DNA of 64,000 nucleotides from contig NZ_CP011125.1 of NCBI RefSeq assembly GCF_000737325.1, positions 10,243,945 to 10,307,944 on the forward strand, read 5' to 3'. The position numbers and the translations under genes were made by a program. The notes beneath the pieces are model-generated. The model worked only from the letters and a program-made list of their open reading frames with translations. It had not been told where the DNA came from and did no database searches. Origin of the DNA: Sandaracinus amylolyticus (GTDB taxonomy: Bacteria > Myxococcota_A > Polyangia > Polyangiales > Sandaracinaceae). Shown piece after piece: positions 41,538 to 49,909 of this stretch (position 1 is the first letter of the stretch; each line of letters begins with the position of its first letter).

Positions 41538-43340
41538 ATGCGAGTCCTCGTCGTCAACGTCGGATCGACCTCCGTCAAATACAACCTCTACGAGATGGAC
41601 ACCGAGGCGCGCCTCGCCGCCGGGCGCGTCGAGCGCGTCGGCACCGCGGACGCGACGCACATCCACGAGGGCGGCAGCGATCGCATCGACGGACGCGACG
41701 TCACCGGCGCGCTCCGAGCGATCCTCGCGCACCTCACGCGCGAAGGCGGCCCGCTGCCCGATCCCACGGCGCTCGCCGCGGTCGGTCATCGCGTCGTGCA
41801 CGGCGGCGAGCAGCTCGTCACGCCCACGCCGGTCGACGAGCGCGCCGAGCGCATCATCGAGGAGTGCGCCGCCTACGCGCCGCTGCACAACCCGGTGAAC
41901 CTCGCGGGGATCCGCGCCGCGCGCGCCGTGTTCTCGCAGGTCCCGCACGTCGCGGTGTTCGACACCGCGTTCCACGCGCAGCTCCCACCGCACGCCTACA
42001 GCTACGCGATCCCGCACGAGCTCTATCTCGAGAAGGGCATCCGTCGTTACGGCTTCCACGGCCCGAGCCACCAGTACATGGCGCTCTCCGCGGCCGAGCA
42101 CCTCGGGACGCACCTCTCGCGCCTCAAGCTCATCACCTGTCATCTCGGCGGCGGCGCGAGCGTGAGCGCGATCGAGCACGGCGTGTCCGTCGAGACCTCG
42201 ATGGGCATGACGCCCCTCGAAGGCCTGGTGATGGGCACGCGCGCCGGCGATCTCGACCCCGCGATCCCGATGCTCCTCGCGAAGCAGGGCATGGCCGCGG
42301 GCGACATCGACGAGCTGCTCAATCGTCGCTCCGGTCTCGCGGGGCTCTCGGGCATCGGCGCCGACTTCCGCGACATCCAGCAGGCCGCGGAGGGCGGCGA
42401 TCCTCGCGCGCGCCTCGCGATCGAAGTGTTCGTGCATCGCCTCCGCAAGTACGTCGGCGCGTACGCCGCGACGCTCGGCGGCGCCGACGCGATCGTGTTC
42501 ACCGGCGGCATCGGCGAGAACTCCGCGCTCGTGCGCAGCAAGGTCTGCGAGGGCCTGATCTTCATGGGCGTCGCCCTCGACGAGCGCGCGAACGAGACGA
42601 AGCGCGCCGCCGATCACGGCGGCATCGTCGAGATTTCCGCGCACCGCGCGCCGACCAAGGTGCTCGTCGTGCGCACCGACGAAGAGCGCATGATCGCGCG
42701 CGAGGTGATGCGCTGCGTGGTCGGCCCCACCGCGACCATCCGCAGCGTGCGCGCCCGTCCGATCCCGGTCGGCGTGAGCGTGCGCCACGTGCACCTCTCG
42801 CGCGCCGACTGCGACGCGCTCTTCGGTCCCGGCTACGAGCTCACGAAGAAGCGCGACGTCACACAGCCCGGCCAGTACGTCACCCGCGAGACCGTCGATC
42901 TCGTGGGCCCCAAGGGCGAGATCCGCCGCGTCGCGATCATCAACCCGCTGCGCAAGCAGACGCAGGTCGAGGTCGCGCGCACCGACGCCATCACGCTCGG
43001 CGTGAGCCCGCCGCTGCGCGAGTCGGGCAAGCTCGAGGGCACGCCGGGCCTCACGCTGCGCGGCCCCGCGGGCTCGGTGGAGATCCCGAGCGGCGTCATC
43101 CTCGCGCATCGCCACGTGCACATGTCGCCCGACGAGGCGCGCGACTTCGGCGTGAACGATCGCGACGTGATCAAGGTGCGCGTCGACGGAGATCGCGAGA
43201 TGACGATGGGCGACGTGATCGTGCGGGTGCACCCCGAGTTCACGCTCGACATGCACGTCGACACCGACGAGGCGAACGCCGCGGGCCTCACCAGCGACAG
43301 CGTCGTCGCGTTCGAAGGCGTGCAGGAGCCGCGCGAGTAG
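41538..43340 (+). CDS. ackA-pduL: Acetate/propionate kinase fused to PduL-type phosphotransacylase
   Basis: 600 residues in two complete enzymes. Residues 1 to about 395 are acetate kinase: VVNVGSTSVKYNLYEM, GHRVVHGGEQLV, FDTAFHAQLPPHAYSY, GFHGPSHQYMALSAA, TCHLGGGASVSAIEHG and VFTGGIGENSALVR. Residues about 410-600 are PduL: VSVRHVHLSRADCDALFG, VDLVGPKGEIRRVAIINPLR and VILAHRHVHMSPDEARDFGV, with the two HVH zinc-binding motifs. PduL makes acyl-phosphate from acyl-CoA and phosphate, and the kinase turns it into ATP plus acetate or propionate, so both steps of substrate-level ATP formation are on one chain. It is 5 bp upstream of a GH13 gene, so probably one operon. There is no microcompartment-targeting peptide or shell gene nearby. 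Confidence 0.93.
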   Translation: MRVLVVNVGSTSVKYNLYEMDTEARLAAGRVERVGTADATHIHEGGSDRIDGRDVTGALRAILAHLTREGGPLPDPTALAAVGHRVVHGGEQLVTPTPVDERAERIIEECAAYAPLHNPVNLAGIRAARAVFSQVPHVAVFDTAFHAQLPPHAYSYAIPHELYLEKGIRRYGFHGPSHQYMALSAAEHLGTHLSRLKLITCHLGGGASVSAIEHGVSVETSMGMTPLEGLVMGTRAGDLDPAIPMLLAKQGMAAGDIDELLNRRSGLAGLSGIGADFRDIQQAAEGGDPRARLAIEVFVHRLRKYVGAYAATLGGADAIVFTGGIGENSALVRSKVCEGLIFMGVALDERANETKRAADHGGIVEISAHRAPTKVLVVRTDEERMIAREVMRCVVGPTATIRSVRARPIPVGVSVRHVHLSRADCDALFGPGYELTKKRDVTQPGQYVTRETVDLVGPKGEIRRVAIINPLRKQTQVEVARTDAITLGVSPPLRESGKLEGTPGLTLRGPAGSVEIPSGVILAHRHVHMSPDEARDFGVNDRDVIKVRVDGDREMTMGDVIVRVHPEFTLDMHVDTDEANAAGLTSDSVVAFEGVQEPRE

Positions 43341-45016: not shown

Positions 45017-45063
45017 GAGTGCCAATCTGATTGGCACTCTCCGGTGTCGCGACTGGCACTCTC
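45015..45063. promoter_or_regulatory. Three copies of TGGCACTCTC, two as a hairpin
   Basis: Right after the amylase stop, GAGAGTGCCAAT (45015-45026) and ATTGGCACTCTC (45030-45041) form a perfect 12-bp stem with a CTG loop, and a third direct copy of TGGCACTCTC stands at 45054-45063. The first two could be a terminator without T tract; three copies in 49 bases look more like regulator sites for the kinase operon that starts at 45257. Confidence 0.45.
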
Positions 45064-45256
45064 GTCGTCGACACCACGCGTCGCTCCGAGCCCCCATCGC
45101 ACATCGGCGATCCAATCGGGCTGCAAACCGACCCGCCGTCTCCGAGCGTGATGTGCACGTTTCGTACGGGGAAACTCGGTGATCGAACTTGGAAACACTG
45201 CGTTCGGACGTTGACACGGCAACGTCGACGATCCGAGACTCGTGACTCGGGGAGGA

Positions 45257-47266
45257 ATGACGAGCCCTGGAGCCAGTTCGAACCGCGCCTCGGGCACCCT
45301 CAGTGGGGAAGAGACGCGAGCCTACACGCTGCAGGCGATCCCTCCTCAGCCGTTCGGCAAGTACACGCTGATCGGCAAGCTCGGGCACGGCGGCATGGCG
45401 GAGGTCCTTCTCGCCGTCATGGCGGGCAAGGGCGGCTTCCGGAAGCTCGTGGTGCTCAAGCGGCTGCACCAGCAGCTCGAGGCCGAGCCCGGCTTCATCG
45501 ACATGTTCCTCGACGAGGCGCGCCTCGCGGCGCAGCTCGATCACCCGCACTGCGTGCAGACGCTCGAGGTGGGCGAGGCCTCCGGCCATCACTTCCTCGC
45601 GATGGAGTACCTCGACGGCCAGGGCCTCGAGCGCCTCCTCCGATCGAGCGCGCAGATGGGCACGATGCTGCCGGTGCCGCTCGCGGCGCGCATGATCGCC
45701 GACGCGCTCGACGGGCTCGGCTACGCGCACGACCTCACGAGCTACGAAGGCCGCGCGCTCGGCGTCGTGCACCGCGACGTCAGCCCGCAGAACATCTACG
45801 TCACGTACAACGGCGTGGTGAAGCTGCTCGACTTCGGCATCGCGAAGGCCGAGTCGAACGTCGTCGAGACGCGCACCGGCGTGGTGAAGGGCAAGTACGC
45901 GTACATCGCGCCCGAGCAGGCCCTCACGAACAACGTCGATCAGCGCGCGGACCTCTGGAGCATGGGTGTCGTGCTCTGGGAGGCGCTGACGTCGCGACGT
46001 CTCTTCAAGAGCGTCAACGAGCTCGCGACGCTGCAGGAGACGCTGCAGGGCGAGATCCGACTGCCCAGCATCCACAATCCGGCGGTGCCGCCGGAGCTCG
46101 ACGCGATCGTGATGCGCGCGCTGCAGCGCGACGTGTCGGCGCGCTACCAGAGCGCGAAGGAGTTCCGCACCGACCTCGAGCGCTGGCTCGCGTCGCAGCC
46201 GAACGCGCCGACGCGCGCGACGATCGCGCAGCTGATGCAGACGCGCTTCGAGGAAGTGCAGAAGGCGCACAAGGAGAAGCTCGCGGCGTGCCTCGCGTCG
46301 CTCGAGGTCGGGGCGAGCTCGATCCAGCGCCTCGTCGATCCGAGCTCGCCGGGGACGGCGATGCCCGACGCCGGAATCTCGGGTCAGTTCGCGCACATGA
46401 CGCCCTCGACGGCGTCGCGCGTGGTGTCGACCGGATCGAGCGTGACGCCGACGCCGTCGCCCTACGGCGCGTCGGGTCAGTACACGCCGTCGGGTCAGTA
46501 CACGCCGTCGGGTCAGTACACGCCGTCGGGTCAGTACACGCCGTCGGGTCAGTACACGCCGTCGGCGCCTTCGCAGCACGGCACGTTCGCGCAGCCCGGC
46601 GCGGTCACGCACCCGGGGACGGCGGAGCCGCGCGAGCAGAAGCGCCGCGCGCTCGGATGGCAGCTCGTGGTCGTCGCCGCGGTGGCGTTGCTCGCGGTCG
46701 CGGTGGCCATCGTGATCCCGCGCGGAGCCGACGAGGCCGCGCCCACCGCGTCGACCGGTGCGGTCGCGGTGCCGCCGGTCGCGACGCCGACACAGCCGAC
46801 CCCGCCGGCGCCCGATCCGATCGTGCCCGTCACGGCCGACCCGATCGCGGTCGCTCCCGACGCGCCGCCCGCCGACCCGCCGCCGGCGGATCCGGAGGTC
46901 GCCGCCGACGAGCCCACGCGCGCCGCGACCGGCAGCCGCGGTGGATCGCGTCGCCCCCGCGGCGGGCGCGGCACCGAGACCGCGACGACCACGACGACGA
47001 GCACCGGCACGACCGGCGCGACCCCGACGACGACCCCGACGCCCGCGGCGACCGGCGAGGACGGTTTTCTGTCGCTCGTGACCTCGCCGTGGACGACGGT
47101 GTCGCTCAACGGTCGCGACCTCGGGACCACGCCGCTGGTGCGCGTGCGACTCCCGGCGGGACGTCACGTGCTGCGCCTCGTGAACGACGAAGCCGGGATC
47201 ACCGAGACCTACGAGGTCGACATCCGGGCGGGTGAGACCACGACGCGGAGGTTGGGCCTGCGATGA
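45257..47266 (+). CDS. Transmembrane Ser/Thr protein kinase with PEGA tail
   Basis: 669 residues from the ATG at 45257, which has GGGGAGGA just upstream. Cytoplasmic kinase domain, residues about 36-310: Gly loop LGHGGMAEVLL (42-52), Lys68 in VLKRL, HRDVSPQN with His172, LLDFGIAKAE, YIAPEQ and DLWSMGVVLWEALTS. A linker with five SGQYTP repeats follows (406-435), then one membrane helix (WQLVVVAAVALLAVAVAIVI, near 467-489), a Pro/Thr/Ala-rich extracytoplasmic stretch, and a C-terminal PEGA domain (SPWTTVSLNGRDLGTTPLV to RRLGL). It overlaps the next gene by 4 bp and heads a four-gene operon. Confidence 0.95.
   Translation: MTSPGASSNRASGTLSGEETRAYTLQAIPPQPFGKYTLIGKLGHGGMAEVLLAVMAGKGGFRKLVVLKRLHQQLEAEPGFIDMFLDEARLAAQLDHPHCVQTLEVGEASGHHFLAMEYLDGQGLERLLRSSAQMGTMLPVPLAARMIADALDGLGYAHDLTSYEGRALGVVHRDVSPQNIYVTYNGVVKLLDFGIAKAESNVVETRTGVVKGKYAYIAPEQALTNNVDQRADLWSMGVVLWEALTSRRLFKSVNELATLQETLQGEIRLPSIHNPAVPPELDAIVMRALQRDVSARYQSAKEFRTDLERWLASQPNAPTRATIAQLMQTRFEEVQKAHKEKLAACLASLEVGASSIQRLVDPSSPGTAMPDAGISGQFAHMTPSTASRVVSTGSSVTPTPSPYGASGQYTPSGQYTPSGQYTPSGQYTPSGQYTPSAPSQHGTFAQPGAVTHPGTAEPREQKRRALGWQLVVVAAVALLAVAVAIVIPRGADEAAPTASTGAVAVPPVATPTQPTPPAPDPIVPVTADPIAVAPDAPPADPPPADPEVAADEPTRAATGSRGGSRRPRGGRGTETATTTTTSTGTTGATPTTTPTPAATGEDGFLSLVTSPWTTVSLNGRDLGTTPLVRVRLPAGRHVLRLVNDEAGITETYEVDIRAGETTTRRLGLR
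46472..46561 (+). repeat. Five perfect 18-bp repeats in the kinase gene
   Basis: Five identical copies of TCGGGTCAGTACACGCCG, each encoding SGQYTP, lie in tandem. They fall in the linker between kinase and membrane helix. Perfect DNA identity implies recent expansion or gene conversion. Thr and Tyr in each unit are possible phosphorylation sites. Confidence 0.95.
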
Positions 47267-48525
47267 ACGCGAGATCGCTGGTGGTGTTCGCCACGCTCTT
47301 GCTCGCGCTCCTCGGATGCGCCCCCGAACGAACGCTTCCGACCGACGACACCGCGACGGTGCGCATCGGCATGATCGCCCCGCTCTCGGGCGAGCTCGGC
47401 GCCGACGGGCCCGACTGGCGCGACTCCGCGCGCCTCGCGGTGCGCGAAGTGAACTCCGCGGGCGGCGTGCTCCCGGGACGACGCGTCGAGCTGATCATCG
47501 CGGACGGCGAGAGCCGCTCCGACATCGGGGTCGCGGTCGCGCAGGACATGATCGACGACGGCGTGGTCGCGATCATCGGCGACTCCGCGTCGAGCGCGAC
47601 GATCGCGGTCTACGAGGTGACGCGTCCCGCGGGCGTGCTCCTCGCGAGCGGCCTCTCGACGTCTCCTCTGCTCACCGAGATCAACGGCGCGCTCGAGCCC
47701 GCGCAGCGCTTCTTCCTGCGCACCGTGCCGCCCGACGATCGCCAGGCCCCGGCGCTCGCCGAGGCGATGTACTCCCAGGGCTGCCGCAACGTGAGCGTGC
47801 TCTTCGCGGACAACGACTACGGTCGCCCGTTCTACGAGCGGACGTCGATGCGCTTCACCGCGCTCGGCGGCATGGTCACGCCCGCGGCCGGCGTCCCGTA
47901 CACGGAGGAGCTCAGCTCGTACCGCGACGAGGTGATGGCGATCGCGTCGGCGCAGCCGCCGCCCGACTGCGTCGCGCTGATCGGCTATCCCGCGTCGGCC
48001 GGCATCATCATGCGTGACTGGGACTCGCTCTCGACGAAGCCCGAGGTCACGTGGTTCGGCACCGACGGCGTGCGCCAGCCGGGCTTCGCGACCGAGGTCG
48101 GCAACACCGCGCTGATCGACGACTTCTACGGCACGGCGCCGGTCACCGACCCCGAGACGCCGGCGTACAACCGGTTCCACGATCAGTTCTTCGCGACGTT
48201 CGGCAACGATCCCGTCGCGTTCTCCTCGACCGTCTACGACGCGGCCGCGCTCGTGCTGCTCGCGATCGCGAAGGCGGGCACCGCCGACGATCCGAACGCG
48301 ATCCGCGACGCGGTGTTCCAGCTCAACGATGCCTCGGGCGTGGTCGTGCAGGCGGGACGCCTCGCGGAGGGCCTGCGCCTGATCCGCGAGGGGCGCCCGA
48401 TCAACTACGAAGGCGCGGCCGGGCCCTCCGACATCGATGCGTTCGGAGACGCCGAGCTCGCGTACGAGCTGTGGCGCTTCGAGGCGGACGGGGAGACCTT
48501 CGAGCGCGTGCGGATCCTCGAATGA
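47263..48525 (+). CDS. Periplasmic ligand-binding lipoprotein (branched-chain amino-acid-binding family)
   Basis: 420 residues. Lipobox LLGC (Cys19). Fold type I binding protein of the LivJ/LIVBP family: VRIGMIAPLSGELGADGPDW, VNSAGGVLPGRRVELIIADG, GVVAIIGDSASSATIAVYE, NVSVLFADNDYGRPFYERTS and YDAAALVLLAIAKAGT. Normally such proteins feed an ABC importer, but no permease or ATPase gene is near; the gene instead overlaps the Ser/Thr kinase gene by 4 bp (ATGA). It may be the ligand sensor for that kinase's outer domain. The ligand is unknown. Confidence 0.9.
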   Translation: MNARSLVVFATLLLALLGCAPERTLPTDDTATVRIGMIAPLSGELGADGPDWRDSARLAVREVNSAGGVLPGRRVELIIADGESRSDIGVAVAQDMIDDGVVAIIGDSASSATIAVYEVTRPAGVLLASGLSTSPLLTEINGALEPAQRFFLRTVPPDDRQAPALAEAMYSQGCRNVSVLFADNDYGRPFYERTSMRFTALGGMVTPAAGVPYTEELSSYRDEVMAIASAQPPPDCVALIGYPASAGIIMRDWDSLSTKPEVTWFGTDGVRQPGFATEVGNTALIDDFYGTAPVTDPETPAYNRFHDQFFATFGNDPVAFSSTVYDAAALVLLAIAKAGTADDPNAIRDAVFQLNDASGVVVQAGRLAEGLRLIREGRPINYEGAAGPSDIDAFGDAELAYELWRFEADGETFERVRILE

Positions 48526-49022
48526 GCGGTAAGACGGCGGCTTCTCCGATGACACGACGATCTCTCCTCCTCGCGTCGCTCCTGCTCGGTGCGTGCGCGC
48601 CCTCGCCGGTGACGGTCGACGTGAATTTCCCGACGACCGAGGCGTTCATGCGCAGCGAGCAGGCGCGCGTCCTCGTGTTCCCGCTCGAGAGCACGACCGA
48701 GCAGCTCGGCGCGTGCCCGCAGCTGCTCGACGAGCTGCCGACGCAGTCGTTCTCGATCGAGCCGGTCTACGACTCCGACCTGAGGAGCGTGTGCGCGATC
48801 CGCGGCGGCATGTCGCTGCCGGAATTCGGCGAGGGCCCGCACGCGTACGTCGTCGAGATCTTCAGCGCGGGCAACCGCCGCATCCTTCAGGGCTGCAGCA
48901 TCGGCGAGATCTACGTCGACGGGCCCGACGTGCAGGTGCAGCTGCATCCCACGATGGACTTCGACGCGGCGACCGCCGCACCGGGCACGCCCGAGTCGTA
49001 CTGCGCGGCGGGAGGAACGTGA
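48522..49022 (+). CDS. Small lipoprotein of the kinase operon
   Basis: 166 residues. Signal peptide MTRRSLLLASLLLGAC (internal Met of the frame; the ATG at 48522 lies nine codons earlier and overlaps the previous stop as ATGA). Lipobox LLGAC. The mature part is a mixed beta protein with four or more Cys (LGACPQLLDELPTQSF, LRSVCAIRGG, ILQGCSIGEIYVDGPDV, SYCAAGG) that may form disulfides. No family recognised. It overlaps the genes on both sides and so belongs to the kinase operon. Confidence 0.75.
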   Translation: MSGKTAASPMTRRSLLLASLLLGACAPSPVTVDVNFPTTEAFMRSEQARVLVFPLESTTEQLGACPQLLDELPTQSFSIEPVYDSDLRSVCAIRGGMSLPEFGEGPHAYVVEIFSAGNRRILQGCSIGEIYVDGPDVQVQLHPTMDFDAATAAPGTPESYCAAGGT

Positions 49023-49909
49023 TGCGCGCGAGCCAGCGAACGTTCGTCGCCGTCGCGCTGCTGATCGGCGTGGTGATCTCGGCGAGCAGCGCCGACGCGC
49101 AGCGCCGGCGTCGTGGGAGCGAGCCGGTCGATCCCCTCACCGCGGCCGAGCAGGCGTACACCGAGGTCGACTTCGAGCAGACGCTCGAGCACGCGGGCGC
49201 CGCGCTCCAGGCGGGCGGTCACACGCCCGATCGACTGGTGCGCATCTACATGCTGCTCGGCGTGAGCGCGGCCGCGCTCGGTGATGCCGAGGGCGCGCGC
49301 GACTTCTTCCAGCGCATGCTCGCCGTCGATCCCGAGGCGCAGCTCGACGACACGGTGCCGCCGCGTCTTCGCGCGCCGTACCTCGAGGCGCGCGGCATCG
49401 TGAGCGCGCGTCCCGAGCAGCTCGGCGTCGAGGTCGGCATCGCGCGCGCGCAGAGCGCGATCCGCGTGGCGCTGATCGATCCGTTCCAGATGGCGCGCAC
49501 GGTGCGCGTGCACGCGCGCATCGAAGGCCAGGTGCAGTACACCGACGTCGAGGCCGAGGCCGAGGCCGAGGTGCTCGCGCCGCTCGACGGCGCCGCGAAC
49601 GCGGATCGCATCGAGTACTGGGTCGAGGTGCTCGATCCGTACGGCAACCAGGTCGTGCTGGTGGGCAGCGAGTTCGAGCCGCGCACGGTCGGTCGTGTCG
49701 CCGCGGTCGCGGTGCCGGGCGGCGGCGGTGGTGGCGCGGGCGGCGGAGGCGCGCAGGAAGGCGGGGGAGGCTCGATCCTCGAGGACCCCCTCTTCTGGAT
49801 CATCAGCGCGGGCGTGGTGTTGGTCGCGGGCGGCGTGGTCGCGGGCGTGCTGATCGATCAGTCGAGCCACGTGCCGGTGCAGACGGGCGTGTCCTTCGGC
49901 ATTCCCTGA
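49022..49909 (+). CDS. Exported TPR-like protein with C-terminal membrane helix
   Basis: 295 residues. Signal peptide MRASQRTFVAVALLIGVVIS, cleaved near ADA-QR. Residues about 35-115 look like two or three TPR-type helical hairpins (AEQAYTEVDFEQTLEHAGAA, YMLLGVSAAALGDAEGARDF). A beta domain follows (YTDVEAEAEAEVLAPLDGA, VEVLDPYGNQVVLVGSEFEP), then a Gly-rich linker and a helix (FWIISAGVVLVAGGVVAGVL). It is the last gene of the kinase operon, with its ATG on the stop of the lipoprotein gene. Membrane-tied periplasmic adaptor is a reasonable guess. Confidence 0.75.
   Translation: MRASQRTFVAVALLIGVVISASSADAQRRRRGSEPVDPLTAAEQAYTEVDFEQTLEHAGAALQAGGHTPDRLVRIYMLLGVSAAALGDAEGARDFFQRMLAVDPEAQLDDTVPPRLRAPYLEARGIVSARPEQLGVEVGIARAQSAIRVALIDPFQMARTVRVHARIEGQVQYTDVEAEAEAEVLAPLDGAANADRIEYWVEVLDPYGNQVVLVGSEFEPRTVGRVAAVAVPGGGGGGAGGGGAQEGGGGSILEDPLFWIISAGVVLVAGGVVAGVLIDQSSHVPVQTGVSFGIP

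Follow-up and report, generated by a model that had tools for sequence, protein, structure and literature searches.

A PEGA-domain Ser/Thr kinase and a LIVBP-type lipoprotein in a conserved four-gene cassette of Sandaracinus amylolyticus: a candidate envelope sensing unit

What does a binding protein of the amino-acid type do when it is encoded beside a transmembrane kinase and without a transporter? The question is raised by four genes in the 64,000-nucleotide stretch of the Sandaracinus amylolyticus chromosome analysed here (the window; positions are counted from its first nucleotide), which the initial annotation read as a periplasmic sensing complex that signals by phosphorylation. We find the genomic case for a unit in which binding protein and kinase would sense together to be good, and judge it reasonably probable that the four products form a four-part envelope receptor, in which an amino acid or close analogue sensed by the LIVBP-type lipoprotein would be reported through phosphorylation by the kinase. 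The features of the locus are as follows.

45017..45039, no strand: perfect palindrome between an alpha-amylase-type gene and the kinase gene, candidate operator or terminator (sequence)
45257..47266, + strand: gene 1, Ser/Thr protein kinase, 669 aa, with kinase domain, one transmembrane (TM) helix, low-complexity linker and C-terminal extracytoplasmic PEGA domain (ORF, Pfam, alignment)
45362..46150, + strand: kinase domain, aa 36-298 (Pfam, alignment)
46664..46723, + strand: membrane-spanning helix of gene 1, about aa 470-489 (sequence, alignment, hydropathy windows of orthologues)
46730..47065, + strand: Pro/Ala/Thr-rich linker, 112 aa (sequence comparison)
47096..47254, + strand: PEGA domain, aa 614-666 (Pfam, alignment)
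47263..48525, + strand: gene 2 (P0002), Peripla_BP_6 / LIVBP-type lipoprotein, 420 aa, lipobox Cys19 (ORF, Pfam, LivJ alignment)
48522..49022, + strand: gene 3 (LIPO3), second lipoprotein, 166 aa, Cys25, predicted beta-rich, no Pfam family (ORF, Pfam, model)
49022..49909, + strand: gene 4 (TPR4), exported protein with TPR-like and FN3-like parts, glycine-rich linker and C-terminal transmembrane helix (ORF, sequence, model)

The overlap of the four genes at start and stop codons that had been noted initially is borne out by the reading frames, which share four bases at the first two junctions (ATGA at both 1/2 and 2/3) and one base at the third (TGATG at 3/4); a GTG at 45242, upstream of the annotated start, is an alternative start of the kinase gene. 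A pattern search matched no sigma-70-type promoter and no intrinsic terminator, so it is from the gene overlaps that we infer co-transcription of the four genes as one operon. The palindrome at 45017-45039 has no second exact copy anywhere in the 10.3 Mb of the genome; one further place matches it with three mismatches. Farther upstream on the + strand, 41538-43340 encodes a single 600-aa protein in which an acetate kinase (PF00871, 432 bits) is joined to a phosphotransacylase of the PduL type (PF06130, 248 bits), so that one polypeptide carries the two steps of the acetyl-phosphate pathway.

PEGA-domain Ser/Thr kinases are common in myxobacteria, and to our knowledge few stimuli are known for kinases of this kind in the group. 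Gene 1 encodes such a transmembrane kinase with an extracytoplasmic PEGA domain, as first described: the Pkinase model scores 120 bits and the PEGA model 23.7 bits (cut-off 20.8), the membrane helix can be read from the sequence, and the catalytic motifs (K68, E87, H172-R173-D174, D192-F193-G194) are intact and invariant in all seven aligned cassette kinases, among which the linker varies from 92 to 167 aa. Neither a TPR nor a rubredoxin Pfam match was found in the protein. The stretch that connects the kinase domain to the membrane helix contains an 18-base tandem repeat of 5.3 perfect copies (46470-46565) that encodes GQYTPS repeats, none of which were seen in six aligned orthologues. The genome encodes at least 153 kinases, about 15 per Mb, and the cassette profile separates this kinase (897 bits) from the next-best of the same genome (431 bits); at this density, the recurrence of one orthologous kinase as a neighbour is no coincidence. 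Kinase models of PADLOC also match the protein, the best being PD-T4-6 at 235 bits, and would make it an anti-phage defence kinase; most of these matches span the generic kinase domain, for which reason we rejected the assignment, and no PADLOC model matches LIVBP, LIPO3 or TPR4, which leaves a role in defence scarcely credible.

That gene 2 encodes an LIVBP-type binding lipoprotein is confirmed by its Peripla_BP_6 score (148.7 bits against a cut-off of 31.7) and its lipobox cysteine; the copy in the congener G315 shares 90% identity with P0002. Peripla_BP_6 is mostly a transport family, and the protein might accordingly be the orphan subunit of an ABC importer encoded elsewhere, the more so as proteins with the LIV-type permease domain BPD_transp_2 (PF02653) are present elsewhere in five of nine cassette genomes (G141, G188, G150, G181, G190), so that absence of this family is not general in the group. 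In S. amylolyticus, however, the lack of a permease with the binding protein, at first remarked only for the operon, extends to the complete genome (a single contig of 10,327,335 bases), where PF02653 gave no match among 28 candidates scored in a search that was positive in 12 of 14 control genomes; there were likewise none in the draft genomes G184, G162 and G157. Linkage of the binding protein with a permease in related genomes, which the initial annotation had named as counter-evidence, was not seen either. In a scan with the LIVBP alignment, from which the best 80 of 229 relatives were taken, a permease lies near 57 of the 67 more distant LIVBP loci and near none of the 13 closest (identity at least 38%), nor did any PF02653 permease appear among 64 sequences scanned at cassette loci. 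For this genome the importer explanation is already contradicted, save for the case of a partner permease from some other family, and we consider it very improbable. Two distant LIVBP lipoproteins of the class (L061, L064) lie near TonB-dependent receptor genes, with no LIV permease in the locus.

The partners that do accompany the binding protein are the other members of the cassette. Among the same best 80 of 229, LIPO3 and TPR4 adjoin 12 of the top 13 LIVBP loci, and at 10 of the 13 a PEGA-bearing kinase lies upstream; the other three are one locus with only 1.2 kb of contig upstream (L090), one with no kinase in 4.7 kb upstream (L096) and one consisting of the binding protein alone (L100). 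None of the other 67 has LIPO3, TPR4 or the cassette kinase. Searching instead with a LIPO3 profile, we found 60 places across the order, spread over 42 of 183 genomes and 23 of 83 genera, and of 329 genomes drawn from the phylum 10 had LIPO3, all in this same order. The LIVBP-found and LIPO3-found sets are not independent, because 12 of the 13 close loci are common to both (on the same contigs of G188, G150, G162, G184, G157, G181, G311, G312, G204, G221, G192 and G314).

All 60 LIPO3 places were examined, and five scoring below 35 bits (L244-L248) were dropped. Within 4.5 kb of the remaining 55 loci we found LIVBP at 49, the PEGA kinase at 37, TPR4 at 40 and all four genes at 34, so that the second observation held out against the sensing proposal, absence of co-occurrence in relatives, is not what the genomes contain. 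Ten of the 55 had been used to build the profiles; at the 45 outside model building (L199-L243) the counts are LIVBP 40, PEGA kinase 30, TPR4 31 and all four 27, and several of the partner misses fall at contig ends (L206, L208, L217, L221, L224). In the distant family most loci have TPR4 in the reverse orientation, and LIPO3 or LIVBP is inverted in others; since order and strand vary while the genes stay together, the linkage has outlived rearrangement. As a control for kinase-rich genomes, 30 LIVBP loci of the class were examined with 1.5-kb flanks, and a kinase was present at five of the eight with identity of at least 41% and at none of the 22 others. Distances between the four families correlate (rho 0.38-0.86) without control for species relatedness, and for that reason only the tree result for paralogue types, given below, is used. 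A second LIVBP paralogue of the same genome, 52% identical to P0002 (L046:8688-16611), lies near two kinases, one of them a TPR kinase, and its neighbours also include a STIG1-type protein and an unnamed protein with nine TM segments; this arrangement is kept in one congener (G315) and absent from another (G316), and we discounted it as an independent case of kinase linkage.

The linkage is broken in places. In G316, of the same genus, kinase, LIPO3 and TPR4 stand together without LIVBP between them, and the sole match to P0002 is elsewhere. In G184, G312, G181 and G313 the orthologue of the kinase, PEGA domain included, is kept, but on another contig. Seven LIVBP-LIPO3 pairs, all divergently oriented, lack a PEGA kinase in the surrounding 4.5 kb (L225, L226, L230, L232, L233, L234, L239). 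For three of these pairs (L234, L226, L239) the scanned neighbours are genes for fatty-acid synthesis, GGDEF and amine-oxidase-type genes and one unnamed gene, not transporters. Three further loci (L231, L057, L199) have LIVBP and LIPO3 with no PEGA kinase found within 4.5 kb, and at two (L235, L236) LIPO3 is alone within that distance. With types assigned from gene order (13 loci of type A, seven of type B, the others untyped), the nearest neighbour of each of the 20 typed loci is of its own type, in the LIVBP tree and the LIPO3 tree alike; the kinase-less pairs form a group of their own in both trees and are co-diverging as pairs.

This co-divergence of pairs lacking a nearby PEGA kinase, together with the four genomes in which the kinase is unlinked, is what one would expect if LIVBP, LIPO3 and TPR4 made up a separate envelope complex, for binding, scaffolding or maintenance, with the kinase mainly co-regulated or sensing otherwise through its PEGA domain. 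Set against this are the persistence of the PEGA kinase near LIPO3 at two thirds of the loci (37 of 55) across rearrangements and the retention of the same kinase orthologue even where it is unlinked, and we regard a separate complex as unlikely.

The pocket of the binding lipoprotein offers evidence on the class of ligand. In an alignment with E. coli LivJ and LivK, the residues of P0002 at ligand-contact positions of LivJ are S110, T133, D158, Y186 and D268. All 10 relatives compared carry the same residues as LivJ at S79, T102, D121 and Y150; the position of E226, which we take to be an alpha-amino-acid contact, is a conservative Asp in all 10, and that of F276 is Phe. The side-chain end of the pocket is not conserved, LivJ Y18, L77, C78 and A100 being mostly changed. 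In the docking results of PMC6983066, S79 and T102 of LivJ are polar contacts of isoleucine. The kept contact residues make an alpha-amino acid or an analogue of one the likely ligand, with the side chain left open by the divergence at the other end of the pocket, although the conserved residues could also be an inheritance from a transport ancestor.

LpoA, which consists of TPR and LIVBP-like domains, suggests a further explanation, in which the lipoprotein no longer senses a ligand and instead activates a protein, in the way that LpoA activates PBP1A, with the kinase monitoring the state of the cell wall or envelope. An LIVBP fold with a TPR partner does recall LpoA, and the LppC model (PF04348) gives a weak match to gene 2; its 10.8 bits, however, fall under the cut-off of 28.8, and invariant contact residues for an alpha-amino acid would be unexpected in a disused pocket, so that we think this explanation quite improbable.

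The last two proteins of the cassette belong to unnamed families. LIPO3 has the lipobox cysteine (Cys25, by sequence) of a second lipoprotein and four more cysteines (C65, C91, C125, C161) invariant in 10 of 10 sequences, and matches no Pfam or NCBIfam family above cut-off. Its predicted structure is rich in beta strands (mean pLDDT 86); a Foldseek search of the PDB yielded no firm match (best E 0.031), and a second structural comparison reached at best Z 8.0 (2yjl_A, rmsd 3.6, 100 aligned), within the chance range for such models. TPR4 was annotated as an exported TPR-like protein with a membrane helix: the signal peptide and C-terminal helix (about 49787-49864) are predicted by sequence, Pfam TPR models score below their cut-offs (TPR_2 19.6 against 27), and the model (mean pLDDT 77) has a TPR-like part at 37-130, an FN3-like beta-sandwich at 133-226 and a helix at 256-281. 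Structural matches reach Z 10.7 for the TPR part (rmsd 4.5, 90 aligned) and Z 8.7 for the FN3-like part (rmsd 2.6, 83 aligned), both in a range common for such folds, and Foldseek gave one match under 0.001.

In the receptor that we favour, the LIVBP-type lipoprotein would capture its periplasmic ligand, an alpha-amino acid or a close analogue, and closure of the lipoprotein would be read by the PEGA domain at the tip of the kinase's long flexible linker, either directly or via LIPO3 and the membrane-anchored TPR4. This readout would alter, in one direction or the other, how the cytoplasmic kinase associates or how active it is, and the kinase would then phosphorylate target proteins. With its 92-167 residues, the linker could allow PEGA to cross the periplasm. 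In E. coli, a residue other than Asp after the lipidated cysteine permits sorting to the outer membrane, a rule not established for Polyangiales, and in the cassette lipoproteins this residue is never Asp where readable. A more elaborate version, which we put forward only tentatively, is a trans-envelope receptor kinase whose linker would take PEGA to lipid-anchored, possibly outer-membrane LIVBP and LIPO3, with TPR4 as an inner-membrane clamp; LIVBP and LIPO3 would then be a portable sensor, serving the kinase at most loci and other outputs in the kinase-less pairs. If the favoured receptor is correct, a kinase whose partner is a binding protein that is soluble and can be expressed provides a direct route to a stimulus, and two unnamed protein families become candidate signalling partners.

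Coupling of solute-binding proteins (SBPs) to Ser/Thr kinases has precedents in Actinobacteria, where GlnH-GlnX-PknG and kinases linked or fused to SBPs are described in PMC6069109, with a follow-up on GlnH/GlnX in PMC9769921; among the receptors stimulated by SBPs, a survey of SBP repertoires includes Ser/Thr kinases (PMC9602780). GlnH-GlnX-PknG resembles the cassette in that a solute-binding lipoprotein outside the membrane is encoded with a Ser/Thr kinase and is proposed to report amino acids to it (PMC6069109, PMC9769921); in both systems the SBP lipoprotein gene lies beside the kinase gene with no transporter. The two differ in that GlnH was named after homology to a glutamine-transport SBP whereas the SBP here is LIVBP-type, in that GlnX with its four TM segments carries the signal across while here the kinase itself spans the membrane and the operon encodes no polytopic protein, in that PknG is a soluble protein containing rubredoxin and TPR parts where our kinase has a TM helix and PEGA, and in the two further exported proteins and the Gram-negative envelope of the present case. 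MSMEG_1200, SGR_4432 and SCO1468, named in the discussion of PMC6069109, couple SBP and Ser/Thr kinase by fusion or linkage; compared by description only, the cassette differs from the fusions in having separate lipoprotein and kinase genes together with LIPO3 and TPR4. The SBP-kinase fusion equivalog NF052427 (StpK7/MSMEG_1200) scores 138.7 bits where more than 900 are needed, over residues 31-357 only. No kinase in the same frame as Peripla_BP_6 was found in 30 places with 1.5-kb flanks, of 54 listed, in six other genomes, which does not contradict the discussion in PMC6069109, as the fusions named there lie in other genomes.

The LIV/HAAT importer proteins LivJ and LivK share with gene 2 the fold family (Peripla_BP_6 with lipobox) and the alpha-amino-acid contact residues, but the PF02653 permease is in neither the operon nor the genome. 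Other myxobacterial PEGA-domain Ser/Thr kinases share the order of kinase, TM helix, linker and PEGA, while the orthologue group of the cassette is tied to LIVBP, LIPO3 and TPR4. We found no description of the four-gene set in the literature searched via PMC, most subscription journals being outside its scope. Since SBP-driven Ser/Thr kinases are already known in Actinobacteria, the cassette is a Gram-negative, four-part version of a known idea, and what we rate as new is this arrangement with its two unnamed partner families.
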